From positions 319,071 through 383,070 of the forward strand of contig JANWYG010000017.1 in the NCBI GenBank assembly GCA_025057015.1: a DNA stretch of 64,000 bases, read 5' to 3'. Both the position numbers and the translations under genes were made by a program. The stretch is from Blastocatellia bacterium (GTDB taxonomy: Bacteria > Acidobacteriota > Blastocatellia > Chloracidobacteriales > JADJPF01). Below, one piece after another: positions 21,319 through 39,492 of the stretch. Positions within the stretch are counted from its first letter, which is position 1. Every line of letters begins with the position of its first letter. A model generated the notes under the pieces. That model saw only the letters and a program-made list of their open reading frames with translations. It ran no database searches and was not told where the DNA came from.

Positions 21319-23547
21319 CTATATACAAGCTCCCCGCACACATACGTTGTGATCACCTACCTTGCCTTCCCATAAAATATCCTTACAGAAGCGCTTTAGA
21401 TTCTTCCACATACACAGATTTTCAAAAGTCTCTCTGTCTGGTTCAAACATCTCAAAAATAGAGCGCGATGCAACAAGTACCATCTTCTTGCGTGCTCGAC
21501 TAAGTGCTACAGTAAGCCTCCTCGGATCAAGCAAAAACTTGCTGCACAGTTGTATAAACTGCGGATCGCTTTCAGTAGCACTAACGACTACTACATCCCG
21601 CTCATCGCCCTGAAACCGCTCAACCGTGTCCACTGCAGAGGTACCATCCGTCGTAAGACAAGATACAAAGCGCCTTATAAGCCCACGCTGCAACCTATGA
21701 GGTACAACTACACCTAATCCATCAGAAGCATCCAGACCATATAGCTTGCTAAGTGCCTCCAGCACAGGCCTTGTAAGACTTAGCTCATACAAATTCTGCG
21801 TTTGACTTACCGCTTCATCATGTATGACCACTATTAATGGATAGTCACTTTTGAGCACAGCCCGAACAAAAGGTTCGTCATACGAAACGTCGTCTAACAG
21901 TTCTTCTCGCCTAGAATAAAAGTTTATTCCATCACGAATGTAAACCTCGTTGCATAAAAACCTTGCCATTACCTTATGTAGCCTAAAACTCTCGCTGAAC
22001 CTGACTATAGGCACATCTCTAGACATAAGCAGCCCAAAAAGCGAGCGAAAAGATTCATACTCCTGAAACGTCCTTCGTGGCTCTCCTTCCCAATCGTGGC
22101 GGACTATCGGAGGCATCTGCCTATGATCGCCTACAACTATCAACTGTCCTTCTTCACCTAATCCCAAAGCAGCCATGCATGCTTCAGGCAAATTAATCTG
22201 CGAGGCTTCGTCAATTACCAAACAATCAGCCCAGCGGCAGTTACCCTCACGGTCATTCCATGCAAGCTTGTAAGCAGACCCAGGCGTCATTGCTACTGCT
22301 ACCCATCGATACTTCCCTATCTCCTTTAGTACTTTGTTGAAACTCGAATCTTTGGGGTACTCGATGAAACCTCCACCTAACTGCTCCCGTCCACCTACTC
22401 TAATCAATGGTACTGCTAGTAAGCGACGGTCAAAGTACTTGGAAAACAGCTCTGGTCGCTCCTCGTGAAGCTTCATCAAAATCTGTTGTACCTTGCGTAA
22501 GCTCTTGATTAGTACATCAGTTGCCGCATGCGTCTTACAAGAGAGCTGTACGCAATACCTGCGCTCTTCAGCCATAGCTCCCTGCATCCGAGCCAGTACA
22601 GCAAAAGCTGTAGTATAGCTCTTTCCCGTACCAGGCGGTCCTTGCACTAAAAGTATCGCATCAGAGCCATGGCCGGATATGTAGTCGGCTCTCTCTTCGT
22701 CGAAGTGATGAAGAAGCCCTTCTTTGGCAAATTCTTCTAAACCTCGTAAAAATCTCTCCTGTGCCTGTTGCGCCGTTTGCGACCATGCTACCGAAGGTTT
22801 GTTCCTAGTAAGTCTATAATACAGCGCATTTGATTCGGGCTTTCCATGCTCTTCGGCCGAGCATAACCGCTCTACAACCTGCAAGCACAAGTAGCTGTAT
22901 ATGTTGTTAGGATCTATATCCAGGGTGTATAGCCCCGGCTCTATAGGCTTTTCAATAGAATTAAAACAGTAAACCCTATCAGACCGACGAGTCGGTTCCA
23001 TAGTCAGCTCTACATACCCAGCAACAACAGTTCCATCTTCAGCTCTATCCAGTACTATTTTGTCTAGCGATGCCCGTGGCCCATAAAGTAGCTGGCGTAC
23101 GGTCGGCGTAAAAGGTTTCTGTTCACTAATTGGTAATCGGTCATCCACTGCCCAGCGACTGTATACTACTACTTTGTCGCCTTCCTGTAAGGTGCTTCGT
23201 AACACCATATCATCGAGCGTGCACTTCAAGCCTGTGTCAGCTAGCCGCAGTTTCACCGACAGTTTGTCATATGACCAACGAAATAACTTTTTCTCATCAG
23301 CAGTTAGTTGACCTACCCGCTCTAGCTCTACCTTCTTTTTATACTTTTCGGCACCTCGCCGGATAGCTTCAGCAACAGCCGAAGGTTGATCTTCCTCACA
23401 ATAGCGTACAAGTAACGTTTCACCACGCAAGACGCGCTTTTCTGGCTCTAGCCACCTTGCTGCTTTCCATTCTGCCAGCTCTACATGCCGCTCTATGGTT
23501 ATGAATTCCTTCATCGATTCAGCCAAATGACGTGCCTTATTCCGCAA
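21319..23547 (-). CDS. SF1 DNA/RNA helicase (DNA2-like, AAA_11/AAA_12), C-terminal part of a split nuclease-helicase
   Basis: 742 residues from a TTG at 23547. The frame is open without any ATG/GTG/TTG back to about 23689, and those extra 47 codons read like protein (HIEDLEAFEKCRLGALEHIA), resembling the end of the RNase H-like domain in TM0106-type proteins. Helicase motifs: Walker A LLVQGPPGTGKSYTT (about residues 300-314), Walker B LVIDEASQINLPEA, motif III VVGDHRQMPPI, motif V region VDTVERFQGDERDVVVVS and motif VI RRLTVALSRARKKMV. It should translocate on nucleic acid with ATP. The upstream nuclease gene ends in the neighbouring frame, so I read the two as one gene broken by a single-base shift near 23686-23689. 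Confidence 0.82.
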   Translation of the reverse strand: MRNKARHLAESMKEFITIERHVELAEWKAARWLEPEKRVLRGETLLVRYCEEDQPSAVAEAIRRGAEKYKKKVELERVGQLTADEKKLFRWSYDKLSVKLRLADTGLKCTLDDMVLRSTLQEGDKVVVYSRWAVDDRLPISEQKPFTPTVRQLLYGPRASLDKIVLDRAEDGTVVAGYVELTMEPTRRSDRVYCFNSIEKPIEPGLYTLDIDPNNIYSYLCLQVVERLCSAEEHGKPESNALYYRLTRNKPSVAWSQTAQQAQERFLRGLEEFAKEGLLHHFDEERADYISGHGSDAILLVQGPPGTGKSYTTAFAVLARMQGAMAEERRYCVQLSCKTHAATDVLIKSLRKVQQILMKLHEERPELFSKYFDRRLLAVPLIRVGGREQLGGGFIEYPKDSSFNKVLKEIGKYRWVAVAMTPGSAYKLAWNDREGNCRWADCLVIDEASQINLPEACMAALGLGEEGQLIVVGDHRQMPPIVRHDWEGEPRRTFQEYESFRSLFGLLMSRDVPIVRFSESFRLHKVMARFLCNEVYIRDGINFYSRREELLDDVSYDEPFVRAVLKSDYPLIVVIHDEAVSQTQNLYELSLTRPVLEALSKLYGLDASDGLGVVVPHRLQRGLIRRFVSCLTTDGTSAVDTVERFQGDERDVVVVSATESDPQFIQLCSKFLLDPRRLTVALSRARKKMVLVASRSIFEMFEPDRETFENLCMWKNLKRFCKDILWEGKVGDHNVCVRGACI

Positions 23548-23663
23548 AGACCTCAGTGTATGCAGCTCAAATGGATGTTTGGTAGAACAGTTGTCTTTGG
23601 GAAGATCCGATGCTATGTGTTCTAGTGCCCCTAATCGACACTTCTCGAAAGCTTCTAAGTCCT

Positions 23664-25505
23664 CTATATGCTGACCTTGCCATACTTTTCAAATTCTTTG
23701 TCTGCTTGCAACGTCCTCCAGGCAACATATGCGTATTCCAATGGGATCGTCGAACTAAAGCGTGCCTTTGCCGTGTATTTCCTCTTACCGTCCTTTCCGT
23801 CGAGTACTCCTGCCCAGTCAAACAACCGCTCGTGAAACAGCTTCTTATAGTCTCGCTTTTCGTCCCTCCAAGAATAGCCCAAGTAACAGGCCAGCTGCTG
23901 TAGCGAATGGGAGACCAAAGGATAGGCACTGAAGCTACGGATTTCCTCAGTGAGAAAGGTTATGACAGGTGAGTCGTATGCTGCTACCTGTGTTATAAAA
24001 TCATAAAGCGATGTCGTACCAAACACGTCAGACAGATGGCGCGACATACCGTCCAGCAGATGTTGCCACGTCAAACGATCAAAGAAGACCATGTGTATAG
24101 GAGCTTTTTTCCAGCCATCTAGCGTCGGTTCAGCAATCTCTACTATGGTATCGAGCAGTTCCCCTGTCCACTGGCAATAGAGATTCATCTCCTTTTCTGC
24201 GGTATCGGGCACAGAATCCGTCATCTTGACGACATAGCGACGTCTCTTCGGCGCACCCGCAGCGTACGCTACTACGAGCGCTCCTAACATAAACACTCGC
24301 TCCTGAAAATAGTCCTTCTGAGCATCGAGATAAACCATCACGAGGTTAGAATTCATGTTCAGGTCGCTATGGGGAAGCGAACTATGTCTTTTGGTAGGAA
24401 TCCTTTGAGTTGCATAGGTACTACGATTGCGAGAATGTAACCACACATTAGCGCGAAATATCAGTTCGTCTAGGCGTGCTCCCAAATCAAAAAGTCGAAA
24501 AAGCTCTGCTTTTAGAGAATTTTCTTGCTTAGCTTGAACGTTCCCTTCATCAATGCCAAGGGCAGCTAGTTGAGGTATGGCCTTTATACCCTTACTGATA
24601 AGTGCCTTGCGGTCAGTTACGTTTATGAAAGGCAGTAACGCCAGATCCTGGTATTCCTCGCACCATCTCATACAGTAGGTGTTATAGGAGCAAGTATCAC
24701 ACTTTTGGTCTAAGCTAAAGTCTAGATCTTCCAGTTTAGCAGCAAGCAAACTCTCGGCTTTAGATTTAGGTCCAAGGACAAGATCTTCCAGTTCATACCT
24801 ATATGTTTCGTAGTCATCGATGAATTCCAAAAAGGCATCTGGCGCAGCAAGCAACTTTAAAGAAGCTTTCCGATGTCGCCTGAGTTTTGCACGCTCAGCA
24901 TCGTCTTTTACCCTGAAATAATCTCTCGAGCCGCGATATACCACAGCTGTCCTGATCTTCGAACAATCTATACCGTTGTTCTGGAAGACGGTCTCCAAGA
25001 GCAACCTGTAGAAGACTACTTGTAGTTTATGCTCGACTTTTACCTCAGAAGAGCACTTGGCATCTATTATCAAAGCGCTCAGGCGGCCACGTCGATCACG
25101 ACGCAGCCTCAGCAAATCTAGGGTACCGTCCACTACCCAGCCATTTATTTCAGCGCTAAGAGCTACTTGAGCAAGAAAGACCACCCCACCTGCAGGTAAT
25201 CGTGCTATCACCTCTTTCAATACCTCTAAACTGCCTTTCTCAGGTAAGGGTAGCCGCCGTAGACTGTACCTATGAGCTATTGCAGCTTCCACTTCGCGCT
25301 CGAATTTCTCCCCCATAGTTTTAAGGATCGGAGGAATTGGGTCATGCTTCACTTCGCTAAAGATCCTGCCATGTAAGGCGTCCTTATGCAGTCGAAAATA
25401 CAAATACCGTTCACATTTATCTAGGTCTACATACCGAGTAATGTCGGTAGGTACTATCTTTTTGACAACCATCTCTGCCACCGGAAACATTAAATACTCT
25501 ATCAT
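23664..25505 (-). CDS. RecB-like nuclease (TM0106 family), N-terminal part of a split nuclease-helicase
   Basis: 613 residues. The N-terminal half is a Cas4/RecB-type PD-(D/E)xK nuclease: VDGTLDLLRL (D126/D130), LIIDAK (D148, K150) and Q162-x3-Y166. Cys31 plus CDTCSYNTYC and CMRWC near residue 270 suggest an iron-sulfur site like that of Cas4 and AddB. From about residue 385 a DEDD/RNase H-like domain begins (NLVMVYLDAQKD). The chain stops early at YGKVSI, while the neighbouring frame continues with matching RNase H-like sequence and then a helicase. No CRISPR or cas gene is nearby, so a repair role is more likely. The ATG at 25505 has no strong ribosome site. Confidence 0.82.
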   Translation of the reverse strand: MIEYLMFPVAEMVVKKIVPTDITRYVDLDKCERYLYFRLHKDALHGRIFSEVKHDPIPPILKTMGEKFEREVEAAIAHRYSLRRLPLPEKGSLEVLKEVIARLPAGGVVFLAQVALSAEINGWVVDGTLDLLRLRRDRRGRLSALIIDAKCSSEVKVEHKLQVVFYRLLLETVFQNNGIDCSKIRTAVVYRGSRDYFRVKDDAERAKLRRHRKASLKLLAAPDAFLEFIDDYETYRYELEDLVLGPKSKAESLLAAKLEDLDFSLDQKCDTCSYNTYCMRWCEEYQDLALLPFINVTDRKALISKGIKAIPQLAALGIDEGNVQAKQENSLKAELFRLFDLGARLDELIFRANVWLHSRNRSTYATQRIPTKRHSSLPHSDLNMNSNLVMVYLDAQKDYFQERVFMLGALVVAYAAGAPKRRRYVVKMTDSVPDTAEKEMNLYCQWTGELLDTIVEIAEPTLDGWKKAPIHMVFFDRLTWQHLLDGMSRHLSDVFGTTSLYDFITQVAAYDSPVITFLTEEIRSFSAYPLVSHSLQQLACYLGYSWRDEKRDYKKLFHERLFDWAGVLDGKDGKRKYTAKARFSSTIPLEYAYVAWRTLQADKEFEKYGKVSI

Positions 25506-25631: not shown

Positions 25632-28064
25632 ATGATCGCAGAAAAAGTACCAGTCAATCTAGAAGAAGAGATGAAGCGTAGTTATCTCGACTACGCTATG
25701 TCAGTCATTATAGGACGCGCACTGCCCGACGTCCGAGATGGTCTTAAGCCTGTACATAGGCGGGTACTATGGGCAATGCATGAGCTAGGCAATACGCATA
25801 ACAAGCCGTATAAGAAATCAGCTCGCATAGTTGGCGATGTGATAGGTAAGTACCACCCCCACGGGGATGCTGCCGTCTACGATACAATAGTCAGGCTTGT
25901 ACAAGACTTTTCCATGAGATTACCGCTCATTGATGGACAGGGTAACTTTGGCTCAATCGACGGCGATGCCGCTGCTGCAATGCGTTACACCGAAGTACGC
26001 ATGGCAAAGATTGCCGAGATGATGCTTGCCGATATAGACAAAGAGACCGTAGATTTTCATCCTAACTATGATGAGACATTGCAAGAACCTACTGTGCTGC
26101 CAACGCGCTTTCCGAATCTACTGGTCAACGGAGCTTCAGGCATAGCGGTCGGCATGGCTACAAACATCCCGCCGCACAATCTAGGTGAAGCTATCGAAGC
26201 TGCTATACTGCTTCTACGTAAACCCGAGGCAACCATAGACGAACTAATGCAGGTACTGCCTGGCCCGGACTTTCCTACAGGTGCGTTTATTTGCGGACGT
26301 AGCGGAATAAGGCAAGCATATGAGACCGGTCGCGGTACGATCATCATGCGAGCCCGAGCAGCAATTGACCACGTAGGCAAAAATGATGAACGCGAAGCAA
26401 TAGTCGTCACTGCAATTCCTTACCAAGTCAATAAGGCTAAACTAATAGAGCGCATAGCAGAGCTAGTCAACGAAAAGAAGTTAGAGGATATAGCCGATTT
26501 ACGAGATGAATCCGACCGCGAAGGAATGAGAATAGTCATAGAGCTAAAGCGCGGTGCAGTAGCCCAGATGGTACTCAACAACCTCTACAAACTGACTCCG
26601 ATGCAAACTACTTTCGGAGTGATTAACCTCGCGATAGTCAACGGTCGGCCTAAGGTACTCAGTCTGAAAGAGCTATTGCTCTTGTTTATCGACTTCCGAC
26701 GAGAAGTGGTGCTGCGCAGAACCGAGTTTGAGCTGCGCAAGGCCCGCTCAAGGCAGCATATCCTCGAAGGATTAGCCAAGGCACTAGACCACATAGATGA
26801 AATAATCGCCTTAATACGTTCGTCTAAGTCGGCTCCAGAAGCCAAGGTAGAGCTAGTAAATCGGTTTGCTTTCTCGCAGATGCAAGCACAAGCTATTCTT
26901 GACCTACAACTTCAGAAACTCACTAGTCTTGAAAGACAAAAAATCCAGGATGAATTGAAAGATATTCTCCACCTCATAAGCGAGCTAGAGGAAATCCTCA
27001 ACAGCGAAACAGCTCTTAAGAATGTCATAGTCAAAGAACTGCGTGAGGTACAGAAGAATTTTGCTGATAGCAGGCGTACGCAGATAGTAGACGAAGAAAC
27101 TGAGTTAACGCTAGAAGACCTAATTCCCGATGAAGAAATGGTAATTACTGTCACTCATGGTGGATACATAAAACGTACCCCGCTTGCAGCTTATCGTAGC
27201 CAGCGTCGTGGTGGTACAGGTCGACGTGGAATGACTACTAAAGCCGAAGATGCAGTAGATCACATCTTCGTAGCTTCTACACACTCCTACATTCTGTTCT
27301 TTACGGACCGCGGTCAGGTCTACACCCTTAAAGTACACGAAATACCAGACGTAGCGACCACCGGAAAAGGTAAAGCTATAGTCAATCTGATAAACCTGCC
27401 AAGCAACGAACGAGTAGCCACTATAGCTACCGTAAAAGAGTTTTCACAAGGGACATACTTGATAATGGTTACGCGCAAAGGGATGATTAAGCGCGTCGAG
27501 CTGTCAGATCTAGCCTACAGTCGCTCGAAAGGTATAATCGCCATGAACGTAGCAGAAGATGACAGCCTAATAGCAGCAGAACTCAGCGACGGCAAAAAGC
27601 GGATTTTCCTTGCCACTCGTAACGGGATGGCGGTTTATTTCGACGAAGCAGAAGTGCGCCCTATGGGTCGCCAAGCAAAAGGAGTACGCGGCATCGACCT
27701 GCGCGAAGGTGATGTAGTAGTCGCCATGGCAATAGTCTCCGGTGATGAACAAATGCTCACCATATCCGAACAAGGCCTGGGCAAGCGTACACCAATCAGC
27801 GAGTATCGCTTCCAGTCTAGAGCCGGCTTGGGAGTCATAAACATGAAAGTAACCGAACGCACAGGTCACGTGGTCACTGTAATGCCCGTACGTGATGAAG
27901 ATGAGATAATCATAATCAGCGCTTATGGCAAAGTTATTAGACTACACGTAGGTGAGATACGCGAAGCAGGCAGAAACACACAAGGCGTCATACTAATCGA
28001 TACTGCTGATGGCGATCGCGTCGCGTCAGCCTCGCTGATACGAAATAATGAGTCGATGCAGTAA
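25632..28064 (+). CDS. gyrA: DNA gyrase subunit A
   Basis: 810 residues. With GyrB it introduces negative supercoils. The catalytic Tyr is Y119 in [18 protein letters not shown]. The quinolone-determining region reads [12 protein letters not shown], with Ala at the place of E. coli Ser83. The C-terminal domain starts after a Glu-rich coiled region ([16 protein letters not shown]) and has the GyrA box [11 protein letters not shown], which marks it as gyrase rather than topoisomerase IV, followed by beta-pinwheel repeats. The stop lies 2 nt before a NuoH-like gene, so the downstream six-gene set is probably read through from gyrA. Confidence 0.97.
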
Positions 28065-28066
28065 AT

Positions 28067-29050
28067 ATGCCAGCTCTGTTGCTTAAAGCTGCCGTCCTAT
28101 TCCTATGGACACAGCATAATTCCTCACGGTCAGTAATGCCCTGTCGGCTACAGCTAGTAGCCGACTTAGTCAAAATTCTTACTAAACAGGAGGTCATTTC
28201 CACAAAGGCCGACGTCGCTACAGCAGAACTAGCCCTCAGTATCTCTATTGCCGCAAGCGCTGCCGCAACAATTGCACTCCCTTGGTGGCCAGGACAACAG
28301 GAAGTAAACTTGCTCTTCGTACTAGCTATGGCTGCATCAAGTAAGTCAGCCCTGATGCTTGCACTGTCTGCCTGTGGCAGCAAGGTAACACCAAAGATAA
28401 TAGCTTGCGAGATAGTAAGCGTACTTCCTATTCTAGCTACGCTCACCTACTGCCAAACGCTTTCTGTGCAAGATATAGTCTTAGCCCAACACCAGCTCTG
28501 GTACATCCTACTTCAACCTACAAATTTCATTATCTACCTCGTTTGTAGCTTAGCGACCCTAGAGGCTATAAATGAGCAGCTTCGCGCAGAAAGCAACTGC
28601 GGCACAGTTCACTTGTGGATGTTCTCCCTACTCAGCCACTCCTACCGTTTCTTCACAGCAGTGCTCGCAGTCACGATCTTCCTAGGTGGCTGGACACTGC
28701 CCGGCATAAACTTTCTGAGCATCATTTCTCACCAACTCTTCACTACAGCTTCATGCATCATCTTTTTGTCCAAAACGGCGCTCGTAATTTATACTCTCTC
28801 CCCTAAAAGACGAGCATTTGCGTTATCTCGATCGATATGGAAAGTAGTAGTACCCGTCGTAGTACTTAACACAGCACTTACAGACGTAATGTTGATCATC
28901 GGAGTAAAACTCGAGCTCATAACCAGGCAAGTCAGCACAGTAGCACAAGGCGCCCTCGGCTACTTCTACTTACTAAGTACGTCACTACTAGTTTCTTGCC
29001 TGTCAGCAGTGCTGTTGCTATACAATCATCGCCAAACAAAGGCTCAATAA
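28067..29050 (+). CDS. NuoH-like membrane protein, degenerate
   Basis: 327 residues, eight or so membrane helices. Relation to NuoH is visible in RLQLVADLVKILTKQEVIS (compare the LQxxADxxKxxxKE element), in TIFLGGW before the sixth helix, and in helix order. The normal N-terminal loop with ERxxLGxxQxRxGPNRVG is missing: the frame cannot extend upstream because a stop lies six codons before the ATG. The PFDxPExExELxxGYxxEYSG loop is reduced to LATLEAINEQLRAES. Both loops line the quinone site in complex I, so quinone chemistry is unlikely. It starts 2 nt after gyrA and 4 nt before the NuoJ-like gene; no NuoI gene lies between. Confidence 0.72.
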   Translation: MPALLLKAAVLFLWTQHNSSRSVMPCRLQLVADLVKILTKQEVISTKADVATAELALSISIAASAAATIALPWWPGQQEVNLLFVLAMAASSKSALMLALSACGSKVTPKIIACEIVSVLPILATLTYCQTLSVQDIVLAQHQLWYILLQPTNFIIYLVCSLATLEAINEQLRAESNCGTVHLWMFSLLSHSYRFFTAVLAVTIFLGGWTLPGINFLSIISHQLFTTASCIIFLSKTALVIYTLSPKRRAFALSRSIWKVVVPVVVLNTALTDVMLIIGVKLELITRQVSTVAQGALGYFYLLSTSLLVSCLSAVLLLYNHRQTKAQ

Positions 29051-29053
29051 AAA

Positions 29054-29509
29054 ATGGAAGCTCTACTGTTTTATCTCTGTACCTCGATCATACTTGTAGC
29101 AGCTATTTTTACTATCTCTTCTGCTAACATAGAGCGAAGCAGTACTGCTTTCGCTAGCATGATGTTAGCTCTGGCCGGCATATATCTGCTTCTGAATGAA
29201 GAGCTGCTAGCAAGCATACAAATACTACTCTATGCGGCCATCTTACCTGCCTCCTTTCTAGCCACCCCTGCAAGCACTTCGAACGGAAAGGCTCATCCAA
29301 AAACTTCCTCATCAAAGCTCTTACTTATACCCATACTAACCCTACTTTTACTCGCAGCAATAAAAACACAACCAAAGCAAGTTGCCGTAAGCTACCGCTC
29401 AGAAATGGTCTACGAAGACGCTGTTGCGGAAATTCAAATAATGCTACTCGTTCTGCTAGCAGCAATTCTAGGAACGTTACGCCTGAAAGACCATCATGAT
29501 AGCTCCTGA
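29054..29509 (+). CDS. NuoJ-like membrane protein, degenerate
   Basis: 151 residues, about five helices. Its place between H-like and K-like genes and the helix pattern identify it. The hallmark of the third helix, normally EIxVYAGAIMVLF, reads IQILLYAAILPASFLATPAS here. The conserved Gly at the pi-bulge is gone and Pro and Ala replace the usual hydrophobic run. It overlaps the NuoK-like gene by 14 nt. Confidence 0.68.
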   Translation: MEALLFYLCTSIILVAAIFTISSANIERSSTAFASMMLALAGIYLLLNEELLASIQILLYAAILPASFLATPASTSNGKAHPKTSSSKLLLIPILTLLLLAAIKTQPKQVAVSYRSEMVYEDAVAEIQIMLLVLLAAILGTLRLKDHHDSS

Positions 29510-29813
29510 AATCTACGATATACTCGCCAAAATCGACGTAAGACATTACCTCGTACTAAGCATCCTGCTCTTTTGCATAGGACTATGCGGAGTGTTGCTT
29601 CGGCGCAGTTTGCTTTCTGTGTTGATGTCAGTACTGATAATGATTAACTCGGTAAACATCAATTTCTTAGCATTTGCACAAAAGGAGCATAGCAGTACCA
29701 AGGGACACATGTTCGCCTTCTTCGTCATAGTAGTAGCTGCAGCAGAAACACTCGTAGGCCTGATACTTCTTGCTTCGTACCGAAGAGAGGGTAAGAAAGT
29801 ACTAAAATGGTAG
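29496..29813 (+). CDS. NuoK-like membrane protein lacking the first channel glutamate
   Basis: 105 residues, three helices, the best conserved small subunit of the set: HYLVLSILLFCIGLCGVLLR, then SVLMSVLIMINSVNINFLAF and GHMFAFFVIVVAAAETLVGL. In complex I the second helix carries an essential Glu (E. coli Glu36, in GLEIMIN); here the aligned residue is Leu47. The second Glu (E. coli Glu72) is kept as Glu84. Proton transfer through the normal K/J path should therefore be impaired. It overlaps both neighbours (14 and 7 nt). Confidence 0.82.
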   Translation: MIAPEIYDILAKIDVRHYLVLSILLFCIGLCGVLLRRSLLSVLMSVLIMINSVNINFLAFAQKEHSSTKGHMFAFFVIVVAAAETLVGLILLASYRREGKKVLKW

Positions 29814-31426
29814 CAGCAGAATTAGTCTTAGTAGTGCTAGTAGCTCCGCTTACAGGGTTTATTTTCAACAACGTATTTGCAGAGCGATTTACACGCCTCA
29901 CTTTGTCGCGTATAGCTCTTCTCTGCACTGCTAGCTCACTATTAGCTGCTACATACCTAGCCTACATCACTTACGGCCAGAGCAACAAAATAGCGTTATA
30001 CAACTTGATGTCCAAACCTATCGCCATAGAAGTTTCATTTCTCTTAGACAAGTCAACCTGCCGGTTGATGCTACTTGTAACTCTCGTGGCACTGCTAGCA
30101 CACATAGCGCTGCGGCTAGACCTGCGTTTTGCTAATCATCTAAACCTATTTTTAGCAGTCACTCTCACATCAATACTCAGCGCAAACTCAGTGGTTACGT
30201 TAGTCAGTTGGACACTTATAAGCCTCTGTTCATACCTACTCTTAGCACAACACGCTACTACTGACGACATAGCCTTAGAAAGCCAGTTTGTACCCGACCT
30301 ATGTCTCTTATTGAGCATAGCTTATTGCCATGCTTTCTACGGAAATATAGTCGACTATGAAACTGTTGGACTCATCGACCGAAAGCTACCTGCTGCTTTA
30401 ATGCTATTTGCTATAATCGGTAAAAGTTTGCAGACCTTACCGCTTCTGCAAGTTAAAACGCTGCCATTTAACAAGGTACTCTTGATTACAGCAAGCTCGA
30501 CGCTTGCTGCAGCCGCGCTAATGCTACAAATAAAGCTAGCAATATCGACGGTAGTAGCAACAGTAGGAATGGCCGCCGCTATCATCACTGCAATCATTGC
30601 AGGGTCACAGATAGCAAAAGTGGCTGCCTACTTTGCAATCTCACAAACCGGATATGCTCTTTTCTGTTTTGGACTAGGAGCTAGTGAAGCTGCAGTGCTG
30701 CAACTAGCAACACAAATACCTTGTACAGTACTACTTGCTTTAGCTACTACACAAAGAGTAAGTCTCACTTTCAGAACACTAGTCTGGCTTACTAGCTGTG
30801 GAGCTTTCCCATCAGGTTTTTGGTTCAGAACTGCTTTCATAGCTACAGCGTCTGAAAGCGTTCTCTGGGCTAGCATTGCCTTTCTAGCCTTAACTTCAAC
30901 CTACCTAGCAAGAACATTGCTGTACCGAACAAAATCTGCAAAGCTAAACATAGCTAGCTGGGGACTGTTACTATGCGCATCTGCTCCAAGTTTCACAATC
31001 AACACACCAACTTTCCACAAAGTCACAAATTTCGCCTTGCTAATCTTTGCGTCATTATTCGGGCTAGTAGTGTTCATAAAACTACCTAAAAAATTTGCTG
31101 AGCTAATTAAGCTACCGCTATTTAGATTACAGAAAGTGTTAGCAAGCGAGAAATTTGGAAAATACAAGCAGCTAGGTAAGAGCCTACTAGGCACGCTGAC
31201 TAGAATGCGTTTCCTTGGACAGGTATTTGCTTGGATTGACCAACATTTAATTGACCTCGGAATCAACTTCCTTGGTTGGGCTGTAAGGGTAATGTCCGTA
31301 GTAGTTAGGCAAATGCATTCGGGCACAATAGGAGGCTATCTCAAAATGACAGTAGTGGCGCTACTGACTGCTCTACTACTTCTAGAACACGAAGTTATAA
31401 AACAACTTTTCTTGCTACTGTGGTAA
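29807..31426 (+). CDS. NuoL-like antiporter-type subunit, degenerate
   Basis: 539 residues, shorter than the usual 600-plus. The C-terminal lateral helix and last membrane helix are recognisable (WIDQHLIDLGINFLGWAVRV, then LKMTVVALLTALLLLEHEV). In the antiporter core, VSWTLISLCSYLLL aligns with the WEGVGLCSYLL element, but the essential Glu is Thr136. GKS with Lys206 is kept, but the following WLPDAMxGPTPVSALIH block is lost (LPLLQVKTLPFNKVLLITAS). The half-channels should therefore not pump protons as in NuoL. No frameshift or stop is present, so the frame appears to be maintained. Confidence 0.72.
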   Translation: MVAAELVLVVLVAPLTGFIFNNVFAERFTRLTLSRIALLCTASSLLAATYLAYITYGQSNKIALYNLMSKPIAIEVSFLLDKSTCRLMLLVTLVALLAHIALRLDLRFANHLNLFLAVTLTSILSANSVVTLVSWTLISLCSYLLLAQHATTDDIALESQFVPDLCLLLSIAYCHAFYGNIVDYETVGLIDRKLPAALMLFAIIGKSLQTLPLLQVKTLPFNKVLLITASSTLAAAALMLQIKLAISTVVATVGMAAAIITAIIAGSQIAKVAAYFAISQTGYALFCFGLGASEAAVLQLATQIPCTVLLALATTQRVSLTFRTLVWLTSCGAFPSGFWFRTAFIATASESVLWASIAFLALTSTYLARTLLYRTKSAKLNIASWGLLLCASAPSFTINTPTFHKVTNFALLIFASLFGLVVFIKLPKKFAELIKLPLFRLQKVLASEKFGKYKQLGKSLLGTLTRMRFLGQVFAWIDQHLIDLGINFLGWAVRVMSVVVRQMHSGTIGGYLKMTVVALLTALLLLEHEVIKQLFLLLW

Positions 31427-32964
31427 TGGACTTTCTAGGCATAGGGATACTTTCTTGGCTGACTTGGCTACCGTTTATAGGGGCTATAGTACTGCTACTG
31501 TTTCAGACTGACAGCGAGAAGACGCGTCAATTTGCAAGCTTCTGGTCGATGTTGTGTCTACTGTTGACTTTGCTACTGTTTCATAACTTTGACGCAAGAA
31601 AAGGTTTGCAGTACATAGAGGATCACGAATGGATATCTTCAATAGGGGCGCGTTATCAGCTAGGAATGGATGGAATCAGCCTAATACTGATAACAACTAC
31701 AACGCTGCTAAGCAGCATAACAGTTTTTCTAAAGTCACACCATCGGCAGCAACTTGTTTTGCTGTTTGCTCTACAGACTTGCATCACGGGTACTTTTCTA
31801 GCTACAGACTTCTTACTACTCTACTTTTTTTGGATAGCAAGTCTGTTACTTTGCTACTTTCTAGTGACGCCAAAATCTGGCCACCGTGAGGCGACGAAAT
31901 TTTTACTCTGCACGCTGTCCGGCGCAACAGCGGTTCTGCTCGTCGCATTGAAACTTCACCTAGCGTTTCCCGAAGCTATAGCCGCTAGCCCAGAGAGATA
32001 TGAATCAGCAGCTAGACTACTCATCAGTGAGGACTCATCGCTAGCTGGTTTACTCAATCAGGCTCATGTTACAGGCAAGACATTCAATATTTGGGCAATT
32101 CAGCTAGCTATTCCGCTACTTTCATATCAGTCGCAACTGCTGCTTTTTGTAACCTTACTACTTGGCCTTGCCGCCAACATACCAACATTTCCACTACATA
32201 ACTGCTTCTTAGGGACACAGAATACTTCATTTCATCTTCTCTTACTGCCTTGTATAATCGGCATCTATGGCATTCTACGCTTCAACTTAATACTTACGCA
32301 GGTAGCACCAGAAGTGCTATTGACAGTAGCTTTTGTCAGCATAGCAGCAGCACTATATTTTACGCTATGTGCAACAGCACAGAGCGATCTGAAACTTCTA
32401 TTGTCATACCTTTACTTGAGCCAGGTTGCGTTAGCCGTCTGTGGTGTTGCTACGCTGAATCCTAAAGGACTTGACGGTGCGCTCTTACAAATCAACCTGC
32501 AAGTTCTACAAGCGGGTGGCATCCACCTGCTACTAGAAAAGCTACCCGATAGAAAAGTAAGTAGCTTCAACAGCCTAGCTCGACAGGCGCCGCGACTTGC
32601 AGTCTTGTTTGCCGTGCTACTATTCGGTCTTGTCGGGTTACCGCCATCAGGTAGCTTCATGGCAACACTGCTGCTGCTGTGCGGCATAGCTGAAACCCAA
32701 CTGCAATGGGCGATCGTTGTCGGCTTCAGTATGGCTATCAGCAGCGGATGTGTCCTTCGCCTTTACCGAAGAACCTTAGAAACCTCCAACGGGAAGTTGC
32801 AAGACATAAGCGTAAGCGAGACGACCTATCTGTTGCCACTGGCTATATTAGTCATTTGGATAGGGATCTATCCGCAAAAAGTGCTATCGTACTTTGATAC
32901 CGCTACCAAAGGGATAGTCCGGCAAGCAAGAGTCAGCACGACACTTCTACAAACGAGGAAATGA
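31426..32964 (+). CDS. NuoM-like antiporter-type subunit, degenerate
   Basis: 512 residues from the ATG overlapping the previous stop (TAATG); a GTG six bases earlier is an alternative. By eye against NuoM: the essential Glu in FFELxLIPM is Ile137 (YFFWIASLLL), the Lys in VKVPMFP is Asn251 (AANIPTFPLH), the middle Lys of LLKMGTYG is Ile277 (CIIGIYG), the His of SHMG is Gln333 (YLSQVAL), and the Glu of NGFVGE is Thr414. The fold is otherwise intact (LPPSGSFMATLLLL, KFLLCTLSGA). It should be a structural rather than proton-pumping subunit. It overlaps the NuoN gene by 4 nt. Confidence 0.76.
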   Translation: MDFLGIGILSWLTWLPFIGAIVLLLFQTDSEKTRQFASFWSMLCLLLTLLLFHNFDARKGLQYIEDHEWISSIGARYQLGMDGISLILITTTTLLSSITVFLKSHHRQQLVLLFALQTCITGTFLATDFLLLYFFWIASLLLCYFLVTPKSGHREATKFLLCTLSGATAVLLVALKLHLAFPEAIAASPERYESAARLLISEDSSLAGLLNQAHVTGKTFNIWAIQLAIPLLSYQSQLLLFVTLLLGLAANIPTFPLHNCFLGTQNTSFHLLLLPCIIGIYGILRFNLILTQVAPEVLLTVAFVSIAAALYFTLCATAQSDLKLLLSYLYLSQVALAVCGVATLNPKGLDGALLQINLQVLQAGGIHLLLEKLPDRKVSSFNSLARQAPRLAVLFAVLLFGLVGLPPSGSFMATLLLLCGIAETQLQWAIVVGFSMAISSGCVLRLYRRTLETSNGKLQDISVSETTYLLPLAILVIWIGIYPQKVLSYFDTATKGIVRQARVSTTLLQTRK

Positions 32965-34397
32965 TGCCGCTAAAGCCTCTTTTTCTGATGAGTCCTGAGC
33001 TGCAATTAGCACTTTTTGTCTGTCTACTGCTTGTACTTGCGATGCTTCTTCCGCAACAGCAGCAGCGTATAGGGGCTTATACTGCTCTACTTGGAATAGG
33101 CTTTGCAGCAGCCAGCTTAGGAGTAACTGCATACTCATGCTGGCATGTACTGCCACAAAATGCGTTTGGTTACAGAATCGATTCGTTTGGGATTCTATTC
33201 AAGGCTATAGCACTTGCTTGTAGCGGACTATCGATTATCGCCTCTATTAAGTATTTAGAGGCAAAGTCTAAGCAGCACTGCGATTACTACGCGTTGATAT
33301 TGCTTGCCGTGATAGGCATGATGCTTGCGTCTTCGGCGCGGGATCTTATAGTGCTTTACCTGTCGCTAGAACTTTCAGCAGTAAGCACATATCTACTAGT
33401 ATGGTATCCTGGCAGATTGAGATCCGCCGAAGGTGCACTTACCTACTACCTACTTGCGATGACGTCAACAGGCATACTCCTATACGGTATGTCAGTGGTG
33501 TATGCCACAACGGGTGAGACATCTTTTGACGCGATAGTAAAAGCCGGGCAGTCAGACAGCCTGTTCAGCATCGGAATAACATTGATGAGCCTGGGAATAC
33601 TTTTCAAGGTCGCTGCCATACCACTGCATGCTTGGCTACCAGATACTTGTGAAGCAGCACCTACGCCCGTAATCCCTCTTCTTCTGATGACTAATTCTAC
33701 AGGCTACATTGTAGCGATAACACTTGTAAAACTCTTTCCGCAAAATCTTGCTGCAGGTCTGCAGTTGATTATGACTGTAACGGCGACAGTTTCGATGATG
33801 GTAGGTAATTTGGCAGCTGCTACACAAACAAATCTAAAGAGGATGCTCGGCTACGCCGGAATTGCTCACAGCAGCAACGTGATGCTCGCTGTAGCGCTTA
33901 CAGATAACAAAGCCACTTTTTTCTACATAGCTAGTTACTGCCTGACCAGCGCAGGCATCTGCATCGTACTTTCGGCACTTTCAACTTCAGCAGATGATGA
34001 AGAAACAGGCGAGTATATAGATGATCTAAATGGTTTATTTAAGACTAATTCCCGACTAGGCATAGCAGCTACTATTCTTTTACTTAGTTTTGCAGGGATA
34101 CCGCCAACTTGTGGTTTCATAGCCAAATATCTGGTGCTTAGCTCCGTGGTTAAGGCCGATTTGCAATGGCAACTACTTTTGATTGCTATCAACGTCCCCT
34201 TAGCTTTTTACATCAGTTGGCGCTGCATTAGGGCAATTTTCGAAGACAAAAAGCAGCAACTAGCTAGCATCGACAAAACACTACTTACAACAGCGCTACT
34301 TCTAGCAGGGCTGATAGCAGGTACAGGGATCTATCCACAACCATTAATTAGGATTTGCGACGCAGCAACTGCCGTAAGATCGCAGTACCAGAAATAA
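32961..34397 (+). CDS. NuoN-like subunit, key residues mostly kept
   Basis: 478 residues, about 14 helices, starting at ATG-ATG with GAGG just upstream. Unlike its neighbours it keeps the antiporter residues: Glu137 in YLSLELSAVS, Lys216 in LFKVAAIPLHAWLPD, the AAPTPV block, Lys293 and His303 in LKRMLGYAGIAHSSN, and Lys389 in GIPPTCGFIAKY. Only the lysine expected in the eighth helix seems replaced by a small residue (LLLMTNSTGY). It is thus the one subunit here that could still move protons. The 3' end overlaps the convergent DUF3592 gene by 50 nt. Confidence 0.88.
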   Translation: MMPLKPLFLMSPELQLALFVCLLLVLAMLLPQQQQRIGAYTALLGIGFAAASLGVTAYSCWHVLPQNAFGYRIDSFGILFKAIALACSGLSIIASIKYLEAKSKQHCDYYALILLAVIGMMLASSARDLIVLYLSLELSAVSTYLLVWYPGRLRSAEGALTYYLLAMTSTGILLYGMSVVYATTGETSFDAIVKAGQSDSLFSIGITLMSLGILFKVAAIPLHAWLPDTCEAAPTPVIPLLLMTNSTGYIVAITLVKLFPQNLAAGLQLIMTVTATVSMMVGNLAAATQTNLKRMLGYAGIAHSSNVMLAVALTDNKATFFYIASYCLTSAGICIVLSALSTSADDEETGEYIDDLNGLFKTNSRLGIAATILLLSFAGIPPTCGFIAKYLVLSSVVKADLQWQLLLIAINVPLAFYISWRCIRAIFEDKKQQLASIDKTLLTTALLLAGLIAGTGIYPQPLIRICDAATAVRSQYQK

Positions 34398-34857
34398 CGT
34401 TAACAAGACCTATTGCCAAGATAAAAATCCAGAATGAAGAAGAGATAGGTCTATGCACCGACCTTGACTCAGCTACATTTAGAGGGTTGTAGTAGATCTG
34501 AAGCCGTGAAGCAGTCTCGTAGTAATTGGCCACTGCTTCCGCTTGCTTTATGCTCGATAGATCAGCAGCTTGACGTGGCGCTATGCTCTGTCCGGAGTAT
34601 GACTTACCATTTACACGATAGGCATACTCGAGATTAACTTCATATATAGTAGAAGCATACTGGTTATTTTGGGTTCCAGTACGTATAGTAATCGGTTTAA
34701 TCCACACCTTCGTGATGTCGGCAGTTACTTCTGGCCAGGTTGCTGCAAGACGATTTTTATTTAGCTCCGTCATGGAAGCCATGACAGCTACTACGCCGGT
34801 GGCAAGCATTGCCAAGCTGAAGAGGAAATAGAGAACGTTCAGCAGTTTTCTGTGCAT
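34348..34857 (-). CDS. DUF3592 domain membrane protein
   Basis: About 169 residues from the ATG at 34857; a TTG further up would add 23. A membrane helix near the N-terminus (LLNVLYFLFSLAMLATGVV) and one near the C-terminus flank an extracytoplasmic beta domain: AATWPEVTADITKVWIKP, then EVNLEYAYRVNGKSYSGQSI and LQIYYNPLNVAESR, the usual DUF3592 signatures. Function unknown. It lies downstream of the hsp20 pair and overlaps the nuoN-like gene tail-to-tail. Confidence 0.8.
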   Translation of the reverse strand: MHRKLLNVLYFLFSLAMLATGVVAVMASMTELNKNRLAATWPEVTADITKVWIKPITIRTGTQNNQYASTIYEVNLEYAYRVNGKSYSGQSIAPRQAADLSSIKQAEAVANYYETASRLQIYYNPLNVAESRSVHRPISSSFWIFILAIGLVNVISGTAILRQLLRRKS

Positions 34858-34933
34858 CAGTCGGTGGAATCTTAAGCAAGAAGACTTGAGAACACAAGAC
34901 TTGTATGCCGCCACAAAGGGCGGCAATACAAGT

Positions 34934-35335
34934 TTACACGACGTTGATGGCTATCTCGCGAGGTTTAGCGGCAGCCTTCTTTGGCAAAGTTATTTGTAGT
35001 ATGCCGCGCGAGTAGACTGCTTTGACGGCGTCGAGCTCTATGTTGTCAGGCAGCGCTATACTACGCTTGAAAGTGCCAGCCGGCCGCTCCTGCCTGCTCA
35101 AACGGCGGCCTTCTACCTCTAGCTTTCTCTCACCGCTAATGGTGATTACGTTGTTATCGAGGTTGAGTTTAAAATCGGACTCCTTCATGCCGGGCACTTC
35201 AGCGAGTAAAACTATGTCGTTTGCCGTTTCGTAGATATCGAGTGCAGGGTACCAGCCTTGCTCCTCGGTCTGGTCAGCACCGAGAACCTCCTCAAATATC
35301 CTCTGGATCTGCCTGTGAAGATCACTTGCAAACAT
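34934..35335 (-). CDS. Small heat shock protein Hsp20 (second copy)
   Basis: 133 residues with the alpha-crystallin domain: YPALDIYETANDIVLLAEVP, GMKESDFKLNLDNNVITISG, ERKLEVEG and the closing strands SRGILQITLPKK. It is an ATP-independent holdase forming oligomers. GGAGGGGGG lies before the ATG. It is 19 nt after the first hsp20 and shares its heat-shock-type promoter. Confidence 0.95.
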   Translation of the reverse strand: MFASDLHRQIQRIFEEVLGADQTEEQGWYPALDIYETANDIVLLAEVPGMKESDFKLNLDNNVITISGERKLEVEGRRLSRQERPAGTFKRSIALPDNIELDAVKAVYSRGILQITLPKKAAAKPREIAINVV

Positions 35336-35354
35336 ATTTCCCCCCTCCTTTCAA

Positions 35355-35762
35355 TTAACCTAAACTGATAGAGATCTGACGCGGCTTGGCAGCTTCCTTC
35401 TTCGGGATAAAGATGGTAAGCACGCCGTCCTTCAGTTCAGCTTTGATCTGGTCAGGATCGGTTTCAGGCGATAACGAAAACGATCTTTGGAAACGGCCTA
35501 TGAAACTTTCTCGGCGATGATAGCGAGCACCTTCGATCTCTTGCTGCTTACGCTCGCCACTTACCGTAAGCACTCTGTTTTCATACCTAACCTTGAGCGA
35601 ATCTTCACTCATGCCTGGTACATCCATCGCCAGATAAAATCCATCATCAGTCTCGTATATGTCTGCCTTTGGCCCGACAAACTCGCTTGGCCAGCCTCCC
35701 CACGAAAAGAACGGACTTTGTAACCATCCTGTTACTGGCTTTGTCATCGCTTTGCTCGTCAT
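35355..35762 (-). CDS. Small heat shock protein Hsp20 (first copy)
   Basis: 135 residues from the ATG at 35762. An ATG 15 nt further up is in frame, but its next codons (AAGGAGG) are the ribosome site of this start, so the shorter form is chosen. Alpha-crystallin motifs: KADIYETDDGFYLAMDVPG, SEDSLKVRYENRVLTVSGER and LKDGVLTIFIPKKE. A WLQSPFFSWGGW stretch precedes the domain. It is the promoter-proximal gene of a two-copy hsp20 operon that faces lon. Confidence 0.95.
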   Translation of the reverse strand: MTSKAMTKPVTGWLQSPFFSWGGWPSEFVGPKADIYETDDGFYLAMDVPGMSEDSLKVRYENRVLTVSGERKQQEIEGARYHRRESFIGRFQRSFSLSPETDPDQIKAELKDGVLTIFIPKKEAAKPRQISISLG

Positions 35763-35801
35763 AAGTTCCTCCTTCATGTGATGGAAGTTGATTACACTAT
35801 C

Positions 35802-35948: not shown

Positions 35949-38300
35949 ATGGAGGAAAGAGTAAGTTTAGCGGTAATACCGTTAAAGGGTACTGTGGTTT
36001 ATCCACAGATGGTAATACCGCTATCTGTGGGTAGGCCGGGCTCTCTGGCTGCTGCTGAGGTAGCTCTCTCTACGGAAGAAAAGATCGCCCTGGTAGTAGC
36101 TCAGCGTGACAGCAACATAGATGAGCCGAAGGCGGAAGATCTATATGACGTAGCCACTCTAGTGGTAATAAGAAGATCGATCTGGCTAAATGACAAGACC
36201 TTGCAACTGATAGTTCAGGGACTTAAGAGAGTAAAGCTTGACCGAATAGAAATGACCGACAAGGGTTACTTGCTCGGCAAGGGATGTATCCTACCTGACA
36301 TACTAGAAGAAACGATGGAAGCAGAAGCTCTCTATAGAGCCCTAAGCGAAAAGATCAGAAAAGCACTGTCGCTCATTCAGAACGTTCCCGAAGAGTTTGC
36401 CTCGCTGATAATGACTACGGATGAACCTCGTAAGCTGTGCTACATGCTCGCTACGCTTCTTAATCTCAGCGTAGAAAAGGAACAGAAAGTGCTAGAAATA
36501 AACTCTACGGTAGAGCTTCTGCGAGCTATGCACGCACATTTAGCACATGAGATAGCCGTTCTCGAGCTCAGACAGAAAATACAAGGTGAAACCCAGGCTG
36601 AATTGAGCAAAGCACAACGGGACTACATACTGCGCCAACAGCTCAAACAGATACAAAAAGAACTGGGAGACGAAGACAACGAGAAAGCCGAAGTAGAAGA
36701 GCTCCGAAGCAAAATAAATGCTCTAGGCCTTAGTGAAGAGTTAGCCAAGGAAGTCTTAAAGGAGCTTAAAAGACTAGAAAAACTCAACTCCTCTTCGGGT
36801 GACTATCAGGTACTTAGAAATTACCTAGAAACTGTAGCTGAACTTCCCTGGAACAAGTTAACCGAAGATAATCTTGACCTGCGCAATGCACGCCAAGTTT
36901 TGGAAGAAGATCATTACGGCCTCGATGAAATTAAAGATCGCATACTGGAGCACCTAGCCGTAATGAAGCTCAATCCACAAGCTCGTTCACCTATACTGCT
37001 CTTTGTAGGCCCGCCCGGCGTTGGCAAGACTTCGCTAGGACAATCGATAGCCAGAGCACTTGGCCGTAAGTTTGAGCGGATGAGTCTAGGTGGAGTACAT
37101 GATGAAGCAGAGCTACGCGGACATCGCAGAACCTACGTTGGAGCGATGCCAGGACGTGTAATACAGGCCATCAGGCGCGCCGCAGTGCGCAACCCAGTCC
37201 TCATGCTCGACGAAGTTGACAAGCTCGGACGCGACTTTAGAGGCGATCCGGCAGCAGCTCTGCTAGAAATACTCGACCCTGCTCAGAATAACTCTTTCCG
37301 AGATAACTACCTGGAACTACCCTTCGATCTCTCAAAAGTGTTCTTCATCTGCACGGCAAACACTACAGAGACCATACCAAGCCCACTGCTTGATAGAATG
37401 GAGTTGATATCTTTGTCCGGTTACACAGAGCAGGAAAAAGTTGAAATAGCAAAAAGATATCTTATCCCGCGAGCCACTACCGATGCCGGCCTTAGTAAAG
37501 AACAATTCCACATATCTGACGAAGCACTACGCAAGCTCATAACCAACTACACCCGCGAATCAGGTGTAAGACAGCTAGAGCGTAGGATATCTCAGCTTGC
37601 CCGTAAAGCTGCGCTGAAGCTTACGCTCGGTGAAATTCAGTCCCTGCAGGTAAATACCGAAGAGCTAACCGAACTACTAGGTCCGCAGGTTTCCTCTCTA
37701 GAGCAGACGCGTCGAATGCTCGAACCCGGTGTCGCTGCAGGTCTTGCCTGGACGCCTACAGGCGGTGAGGTGCTGTACGTTGAAGCTACTTTGCTGCCAG
37801 GGGGTAAGGATATGGTGCTAACAGGCCAACTAGGCGATGTGATGAAAGAGTCTGCCCGTGCAGCGATGAGCTACTTCTGGGCCAACAGCTCGCACTTTGG
37901 TATAGACTACAAAGTGATCCGGGACAATGGCATACACCTGCACGTACCTGCTGGAGCTGTACCTAAAGACGGCCCGTCAGCAGGCGTAACCATGGCTACA
38001 GCCCTAGCTTCGCTCTACCTCAAAACCCCGATGAGAACAGATACTGCTATGACTGGCGAGATAACCCTATCAGGTCTTGTCTTACCCATAGGAGGAGTCA
38101 AAGAAAAACTACTTGCAGCCAGGCGAGCAGGACTTAAGCGAATAATCCTGCCCAAAGGAAACGAGAAGGATCTACGCAAGTTGCCCGATGAACTAAGACA
38201 AGAGTTAGAAATCATACTCGTAGAGCGTATAGAAGAAGTCCTCTGTGCTGCAATACCTCGCTTCAAGCAACTTGTAGAATCTATGTGTTCGGCTGCTTAA
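35949..38300 (+). CDS. lon: ATP-dependent protease La
   Basis: 783 residues, LonA type. It degrades misfolded and regulatory proteins in the cytoplasm. Domains: N-terminal LAN domain (VIPLKGTVVYPQMVIPLSVG), coiled region, AAA+ with Walker A FVGPPGVGKTS (about residue 352) and Walker B NPVLMLDEVDK, and a C-terminal protease with the dyad Ser677 in KDGPSAGVTM and Lys720 in GGVKEKLLAARRAG (spacing 43, as in E. coli Ser679/Lys722). GGAGG precedes the ATG. It diverges from the hsp20 pair and likely shares heat-shock control with it. Confidence 0.97.
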   Translation: MEERVSLAVIPLKGTVVYPQMVIPLSVGRPGSLAAAEVALSTEEKIALVVAQRDSNIDEPKAEDLYDVATLVVIRRSIWLNDKTLQLIVQGLKRVKLDRIEMTDKGYLLGKGCILPDILEETMEAEALYRALSEKIRKALSLIQNVPEEFASLIMTTDEPRKLCYMLATLLNLSVEKEQKVLEINSTVELLRAMHAHLAHEIAVLELRQKIQGETQAELSKAQRDYILRQQLKQIQKELGDEDNEKAEVEELRSKINALGLSEELAKEVLKELKRLEKLNSSSGDYQVLRNYLETVAELPWNKLTEDNLDLRNARQVLEEDHYGLDEIKDRILEHLAVMKLNPQARSPILLFVGPPGVGKTSLGQSIARALGRKFERMSLGGVHDEAELRGHRRTYVGAMPGRVIQAIRRAAVRNPVLMLDEVDKLGRDFRGDPAAALLEILDPAQNNSFRDNYLELPFDLSKVFFICTANTTETIPSPLLDRMELISLSGYTEQEKVEIAKRYLIPRATTDAGLSKEQFHISDEALRKLITNYTRESGVRQLERRISQLARKAALKLTLGEIQSLQVNTEELTELLGPQVSSLEQTRRMLEPGVAAGLAWTPTGGEVLYVEATLLPGGKDMVLTGQLGDVMKESARAAMSYFWANSSHFGIDYKVIRDNGIHLHVPAGAVPKDGPSAGVTMATALASLYLKTPMRTDTAMTGEITLSGLVLPIGGVKEKLLAARRAGLKRIILPKGNEKDLRKLPDELRQELEIILVERIEEVLCAAIPRFKQLVESMCSAA

Positions 38301-38451: not shown

Positions 38452-39492
38452 ATGAACCTCATACATGGCCTTACTTTCGACGATGTGCTACTTGTACCAA
38501 ACTACAATGGCATCCGCTCTCGCCAAGACGTAAGCACCTCAGTCTCCATGGGCAGAATAAACTTCGACATTCCCATCATCAGTTCAAATATGGACACAAT
38601 CACCGGCATCAGAATGGCTAATGCTATGGCAGAACTCGGTGGATTAGGTATCCTACACCGCTTTATGTCTATCGAGCAGAACGTAGAAGAATTTCGCAAG
38701 GCTGTAAACAAAGAGCGCGTAGGTGTATCGATAGGCGTAGGCGAAGCTGCTATAGAACGTGCCGAAGCCTTGATAGCTGAAGGAGCTGTAATTATTTGCC
38801 TCGATGTAGCTCACGGTCACGCTAAGCTCGTCAATCAAACCATCAAGACGCTCAAAAAGAAATTCCGCGATCAAATAGTAGTTATAGCAGGCAATGTGGC
38901 TACCTATGCTGGTGCAGACTACCTAGCTGCCGCTGGTGCGGATGTTATAAAAGTAGGTATAGGTGGCGGCTCGGTTTGCACAACTAGAATAAAGACCGGC
39001 TTTGGAGTACCGCAACTAACCGCCATAATGATGTGCCGCCAAGTAGACAGGGTGTTGATAGCTGATGGCGGGATAAAAACGCCCGGCGATGCAGTCAAAG
39101 CGCTTGCTGCCGGAGCAGACTTCGTCATGCTTGGTGGAATGCTTGCAGGTACTGAAGAAACCCCAGGAGAAGTAAGATACAAAAGCCTTCCTGACGGACG
39201 ACAAGTAGCAGTTAAGATTTTCCGTGGCATGGCTTCTAAAGAAGCTCAAGAAGACTTCATGGGTGGCATGGCAGAATGGAAAACAGCAGAAGGTATTTCT
39301 GTAGAAGTTCCAGCCAGAGGACCTGTAGCAGAAGTCATCAGAGACGTCATGGGAGGCATTAGATCAGGTTTGACTTACTGCGGAGCAGCTACCATAAAAG
39401 ATCTGCAACGAAAAGCACAGTTTATGACGATTACCCCAGCTGGTGCTCGCGAAAGCGCCCCACACGCTCTAGGCCGTATTACCGTAGAGTAG
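38452..39492 (+). CDS. guaC: GMP reductase-type IMPDH/GMPR enzyme
   Basis: 346 residues, the size of GMP reductase, without the CBS pair of IMP dehydrogenase. It starts LTFDDVLLVPNYNGIRSR and has IPIISSNMDTITG, the catalytic Cys loop GIGGGSVCTTRIKTGFGVPQ (the KTG form typical of GMPR rather than the IMPDH form), VLIADGGIKTPGDA and FMGGMAEWK. It should deaminate GMP to IMP using NADPH in purine salvage. GAAAGGAG precedes the ATG. Substrate assignment between GMPR and a CBS-less IMPDH is the only real doubt. Confidence 0.85.
   Translation: MNLIHGLTFDDVLLVPNYNGIRSRQDVSTSVSMGRINFDIPIISSNMDTITGIRMANAMAELGGLGILHRFMSIEQNVEEFRKAVNKERVGVSIGVGEAAIERAEALIAEGAVIICLDVAHGHAKLVNQTIKTLKKKFRDQIVVIAGNVATYAGADYLAAAGADVIKVGIGGGSVCTTRIKTGFGVPQLTAIMMCRQVDRVLIADGGIKTPGDAVKALAAGADFVMLGGMLAGTEETPGEVRYKSLPDGRQVAVKIFRGMASKEAQEDFMGGMAEWKTAEGISVEVPARGPVAEVIRDVMGGIRSGLTYCGAATIKDLQRKAQFMTITPAGARESAPHALGRITVE

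Follow-up and report, generated by a model that had tools for sequence, protein, structure and literature searches.

A candidate redox-less membrane arm derived from a second complex I and located behind gyrA in a Blastocatellia genome

A 64,000-nucleotide stretch of a Blastocatellia genome (GenBank assembly GCA_025057015.1, contig JANWYG010000017.1, positions 319,071 to 383,070 of the forward strand; below, the window) contains six genes downstream of gyrA that resemble nuoH-J-K-L-M-N, genes for the membrane subunits of complex I. We denote them dH, dJ, dK, dL, dM and dN (Table 1). Judged by sequence comparison, they are orthologues of the genes H2-N2 of a class-wide second complex I, of which they form the derived remainder. 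On balance, the six proteins probably constitute a membrane complex that descends from complex I, has no redox part, is impaired as a pump and is maintained by selection. The fuller proposal, that this is a stand-alone complex with a new non-redox function, kept by selection after the redox arm, the quinone site and most pumping residues were lost, is offered tentatively. A maintained non-redox complex is the most likely of the explanations considered; a genomic fossil comes second, and a hybrid enzyme or an Mrp-like antiporter is less likely.

The original prediction described an intact six-gene run starting 2 nt after gyrA, with no nuoI between H and J and none of the subunits A-G in the window. 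Coordinates, profile matches, the reading of the genes and genome-wide searches all agree with this description. A gap of 3 nt separates dH from dJ, and the following genes overlap by 14 (dJ/dK), 7 (dK/dL), 7 (dL/dM) and 4 nt (dM/dN). All six are matched by profiles of complex I membrane subunits, but weakly. The frames are open throughout, with zero internal stops. No gene lies between dH and dJ, and neither A-G nor I is found beside the module.

The host genome (3.33 Mb in 23 contigs, 97% complete) contains a canonical nuo operon on a separate contig, C14, with the gene order A B C D E F G H J K L M N. NuoA, NuoB, NuoC and NuoD are each encoded once in the genome, all within this operon. The single full-scoring copy of NuoI is unlinked and lies on contig C3 (G000:C3:16414-16800). 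Genome-wide profile searches found no redox-arm subunits B, C, D or I specific to the membrane arm of the window. Since the single A-D and the one full-scoring I are all outside the window, the module is a second, redox-less membrane arm. The separate canonical set whose presence the original prediction proposed to check is thus found, and the refuting case it named, a genome with no other nuo set and proteins aligning fully with normal complex I, fails in both parts.

The source of the module is indicated by related genomes. When dH was used as query, many genomes of the class proved to encode a second NuoH-like protein, H2, about 424-490 aa long. We read up to 20 kb around 20 H2 matches, and most of these 20 relatives have a second operon, C2-D2-H2-(I2)-J2-K2-L2-M2-N2, from which E, F and G are missing. 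The ORF between H2 and J2 has no NuoI model match and is assigned as putative I2 from its position and length. A2 and B2 form a separate unlinked pair in two relatives (L173, L179), and two same-family genomes (L175, L176) have B2 without an adjacent recognised A2. The canonical operon is also present in relatives L172, L174, L178, L181 and L182. An H2 match (57%) was found in a metagenome-assembled genome of Pyrinomonadaceae. A complex I of this kind, which lacks NuoEFG and has the extended H2 with A2-B2 unlinked, occurs widely in the class (L040-L058). The absence of nuoI between dH and dJ was at first taken as a special sign of the module. It is not: the H2-J2 interval contains no gene in two same-family relatives, and the canonical operon of the host also lacks nuoI between nuoH and nuoJ (L003:11567-13178).

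All window genes except dK are clearly nearer to the second-operon genes of their own family than to the canonical copies; dJ is closest to the same-family J2, and dH shares the C-terminal extension typical of H2. In a tree of concatenated H, K, L, M and N (LG+F+G4), the module groups with L040/L041, the second operon found in its own family, the split having 96% bootstrap support. The branch of the module is 2.8 substitutions per site, about ten times longer than the other second-operon tips (0.04-0.45). Long-branch effects are possible, yet they would not be expected to pull the module toward the short L040/L041 branch. Identity between the window genes and the same-family second operon is 30-43%. 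Within the family it is 59-73% for the second operon (H, J and K being measurable), 58-83% for canonical orthologues and 73-79% for gyrA. Between dH and canonical NuoH it is only 24-25%. The original prediction had called the arrangement unfamiliar; this holds for a membrane arm without a redox arm, but its origin can now be traced to the second complex I of the class.

The window module thus resembles the second operon of the class in having orthologous membrane subunits in the same order, the C-terminal extension of H2 and a sister position in the tree. It differs in lacking A2-D2, in the truncated H, in the loss of docking loops and ion-path residues, and in its place behind gyrA. This place is not conserved in relatives. 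The original prediction proposed to look for the same gyrA-H-J-K-L-M-N order in related genomes; among the relatives whose gyrA neighbourhood was read, none has a nuo gene beside gyrA, and the neighbours are unrelated. An old conserved gyrA-nuo linkage was therefore rejected: other genes flank gyrA in relatives, and the flanks of their second operons do not occur in the window.

The dH gene is truncated at the 5' end, and alignment with H2 shows that most of the first transmembrane helix (TMH1) is missing. Three loops are absent: the TMH1-2 loop ER..R.GPNRVGP, the SLLGALRS (LLGALR) loop, and the ETNRAPFDLPEAE loop together with the EYSG that follows it. The first and the last of these loops (ER..R.GPNRVGP and ETNRAPFDLPEAE...EYSG) occur both in canonical NuoH and in all nine of the aligned H2 sequences, and are deleted or replaced in dH. 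In complex I, the loops lost from dH form the quinone cavity and the contact with NuoB and NuoD.

The other proteins are affected to different degrees. In dJ, Tyr60 (the position of E. coli Y59) is kept and five transmembrane (TM) segments are predicted. For dK, dL, dM and dN, residues are numbered as in the canonical subunit of the same genome. In dK, Glu36, the first essential Glu, is replaced (Leu47) and Glu72 is retained (Glu84). The dL protein has 539 aa, versus 673-789, and retains the region aligned with the lateral helix HL/TM16. It lost E147, R178, H270, H350, H354, K358 and D415, has Arg instead of K414, and kept D181 and K245; the TM7 Lys is retained, the TM12 Lys is changed to Arg and the TM5 Glu is gone. 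The dM protein lost E142, K232, K263, H320, H346 and E405; the Glu of TM5, the Lys of TM7 and TM8 and the Glu of TM12 are all gone; among the residues checked it kept only H239. The least diverged large subunit is dN, which kept E148 (TM5), K239 (TM7), H246, K322 and K415, including the Lys of TM12, and lost the TM8 Lys, K269 (Ser). The key ion-path residues lost in the window proteins are intact in every second operon compared. Of the features expected of complex I, the homology and folds of membrane subunits are found in the module; the redox subunits, the NuoH loops, the NuoK Glu pair and the antiporter residues, four of the five, are not.

The loss of residues is broad and not aimed at charges. 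Preferential loss of charged residues was considered and rejected, as 35 of 80 charged and 142 of 299 other invariant sites are kept (Fisher p 0.61).

The same losses could be read as late-stage decay: after loss of the redox arm from the second complex I, the genes for the membrane part would be decaying with no function of their own, the frames persisting either because truncated polytopic membrane proteins are harmful or because the loss of constraint is recent. The absence of a preference for charged sites among the lost catalytic, docking and ion-path residues is consistent with such a fossil, as are the roughly tenfold longer branch, the many in-frame deletions in dL and the absence of a counterpart in other genomes. 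However, simulated neutral evolution predicts 35-65 stops across the six genes at 67-34% identity, and none is observed. There are about 67 runs of alignment gaps (a count inferred from a divergent alignment), many of them in dL, and all are in frame. Neutral drift in the simulation also roughly halves the TM counts, whereas the window proteins keep TM counts and hydropathy like those of their orthologues. Stops and frameshifts are thus not at the level that would mark pseudogenes. Finally, a recent loss of constraint would have left identity near the level seen within the family. We therefore consider the fossil unlikely. Selection seems to keep the six genes, in agreement with the earlier impression that their frames are maintained.

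The predicted folds point in the same direction. The AlphaFold2 (AF2) model of dH (pLDDT 79.8, pTM 0.77) matches E. coli NuoH in a Foldseek search (E 7e-9), and that of dL (pLDDT 76.0) matches NuoL (E about 1e-15 to 1e-14), the nearest PDB match of dL being 4he8_L (E 1e-9). The subunit check suggested originally thus gave the NuoH and NuoL folds for these two models. In structural alignments with the canonical E. coli arm (3rko/7nyh), identity is about 20%. The HL/TM16-aligned region of dL is predicted to be helical at low confidence, which hints that the arm may still assemble. As compared with the E. coli NuoH-N arm, the predicted folds of dH and dL agree, but NuoA and the quinone-site loops are missing and the dM proton path is reduced to H239.

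Several points weigh against a complex maintained by selection. The AF2 alignments contained real complex I subunits, and thus the retention of folds is partly built in. Only 177 of 379 positions (47%) at least 90% conserved elsewhere are kept, as expected from strongly relaxed constraint. The module is a single-genome case, and no close relative carrying it was found for estimating dN/dS. At 97% completeness, unlinked partners could be missing from the assembly.

The following scenario for a maintained complex may be suggested. The ancestral state is the second complex I without NuoE, NuoF and NuoG, still whole in relatives from the class. The host lineage lost A2, B2, C2 and D2, while H2-J2-K2-L2-M2-N2 survived behind gyrA with H2 cut at its 5' end. 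A single rearrangement or deletion probably eliminated C2 and D2 along with the start of H2 and placed the rest behind gyrA, because C2-D2 directly precede H2 in relatives and dH loses the H2 N-terminus exactly at gyrA. A2 and B2 must have been lost separately from these. The six proteins would then have evolved about ten times faster, under continued selection as membrane proteins. Their predicted folds, TM counts and the HL-aligned region of dL suggest that the ability to form a membrane arm is most likely retained; this arm should not bind quinone, and no known mode of docking to a redox arm should be open to it.

As to activity, ion conductance of a passive or secondary kind appears most likely, unless the complex serves in structure or regulation. 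Conductance is favoured because only dN has a nearly complete set of proton-channel residues. A second complete enzyme with redox-driven pumping can be excluded in this form, since there is no second redox arm and dH lacks the interface known for contact with the canonical one. That dM works as a normal proton pump is unlikely, and the same applies to a conventional ion pump in general, because dM and dL lost most proton-path residues. The suggestion of a new ion or scaffold complex thus stands in part: the conventional pump is disfavoured, and a scaffold or another non-redox complex is possible.

As the genome has only one set for the peripheral arm, the module could be an alternative membrane arm pairing with the canonical NuoA-G and NuoI in a hybrid enzyme. 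However, dH lacks the cytoplasmic loops for NuoB/D binding and the quinone cavity and is far from canonical NuoH, and most of the proton path is missing from dM and dL; we regard the hybrid as highly improbable. A secondary cation/proton antiporter of the Mrp kind, formed by the L, M/N, K and J homologues, is no more probable. L, N, K and J are homologous to MrpA-N, MrpD, MrpC and MrpA-C (PMC7419157), and dN keeps most antiporter residues. No Mrp was seen in the genome, whose PF00361 proteins all belong to the two nuo sets (canonical L, M and N, and dM and dN of the window; dL is not among the matches because it is too diverged for the model). On the other hand, Mrp is composed of MrpA-MrpG and has no NuoH, whereas dH is present here; in dL the TM5 Glu is gone, along with most proton-path residues; and the scan of neighbouring genes revealed none that is MrpE/F/G-like, MrpB/E/F/G not having been searched genome-wide. 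The likeness to Mrp (PMC7419157) is thus that both are redox-less and combine subunits of the L, N, K and J types; the antiporter-like subunits of Mrp retain the key Glu and Lys.

Another comparison is with the 11-subunit complex I-like enzymes without the NADH module, such as that of Desulfitobacterium, needed for growth on lactate and pyruvate (PMC11238625). That enzyme also has no NuoE/F/G and has the same kinds of membrane subunits, but it contains a NuoB/C/D/I redox part, and the window module has none. A literature search found no published NuoH-J-K-L-M-N set without NuoB/D, orphan NuoH-N module or relict complex I. Neither 162 genomes of the class nor 396 of the phylum yielded a similar module, the latter sample being drawn evenly from a larger group, so that further cases may exist outside it. 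A scan of genome contigs with dN alone found no relative, and a scan with H2 retrieved NuoH from many phyla, useful mainly for alignments. In sequence, the parts of the module are clearly homologous to complex I, and the module itself is known from one genome.

The pattern of N kept, M stripped, L partly stripped and H without loops amounts to natural mutagenesis of the coupling machinery. On the prevailing view, complex I arose when a redox module resembling hydrogenases joined an Mrp-like transporter. If our reading is true, the module followed the reverse course, a membrane arm being kept after the loss of the redox arm while the quinone site and the pump residues decayed, and would show which parts of the arm matter without electron transfer.

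The module may be co-transcribed with gyrA. The gyrA-dH junction shows no terminator-like site, and matches to promoter patterns in the region are at chance level. Given the spacing, read-through from gyrA is the simplest assumption, and the promoter is probably carried by the upstream gyrA. Contamination or misassembly was considered unlikely: gyrA from this stretch shares 79% identity with its counterpart in the nearest same-family genome, and the GC content of the module matches that of the window.

Table 1. The module, gyrA and neighbouring genes in the window
Feature	Positions	Strand	Profile matches and remarks
AAA helicase-like protein and RecB-like PD-(D/E)XK nuclease	21319-25505	-	
gyrA (DNA gyrase subunit A)	25632-28064	+	NF004043/TIGR01063 equivalogs
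dH (derived NuoH2)	28067-29050	+	PF00146 E 9.5e-21
dJ (derived NuoJ2)	29054-29509	+	PF00499 32.3 bits, just under the 33.2 cut-off
dK (derived NuoK2)	29496-29813	+	PF00420 E 3.3e-22
dL (strongly derived NuoL2)	29807-31426	+	NuoL models (NCBIfam) E about 1e-16; no Pfam match
dM (derived NuoM2)	31420-32964	+	GTG start; PF00361 E 3.9e-18; TIGR01972 E 3e-68
dN (derived NuoN2)	32961-34397	+	PF00361 E 1.2e-52
DUF3592 protein	34348-34926	-	
HSP20, two genes	34934-35777	-	
lon	35949-38300	+	
IMPDH/GMP reductase domain protein	38452-39489	+	346 aa; below every equivalog cut-off

Downstream of the module, dN and the oppositely oriented DUF3592 protein gene overlap by 50 bp at their 3' ends. The DUF3592 gene is followed by the two tandem HSP20 genes, divergent from lon, and by the gene of the IMPDH/GMP reductase domain protein. 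Upstream, the gene of the AAA helicase-like protein adjoins that of the RecB-like nuclease, and both are divergent from gyrA.

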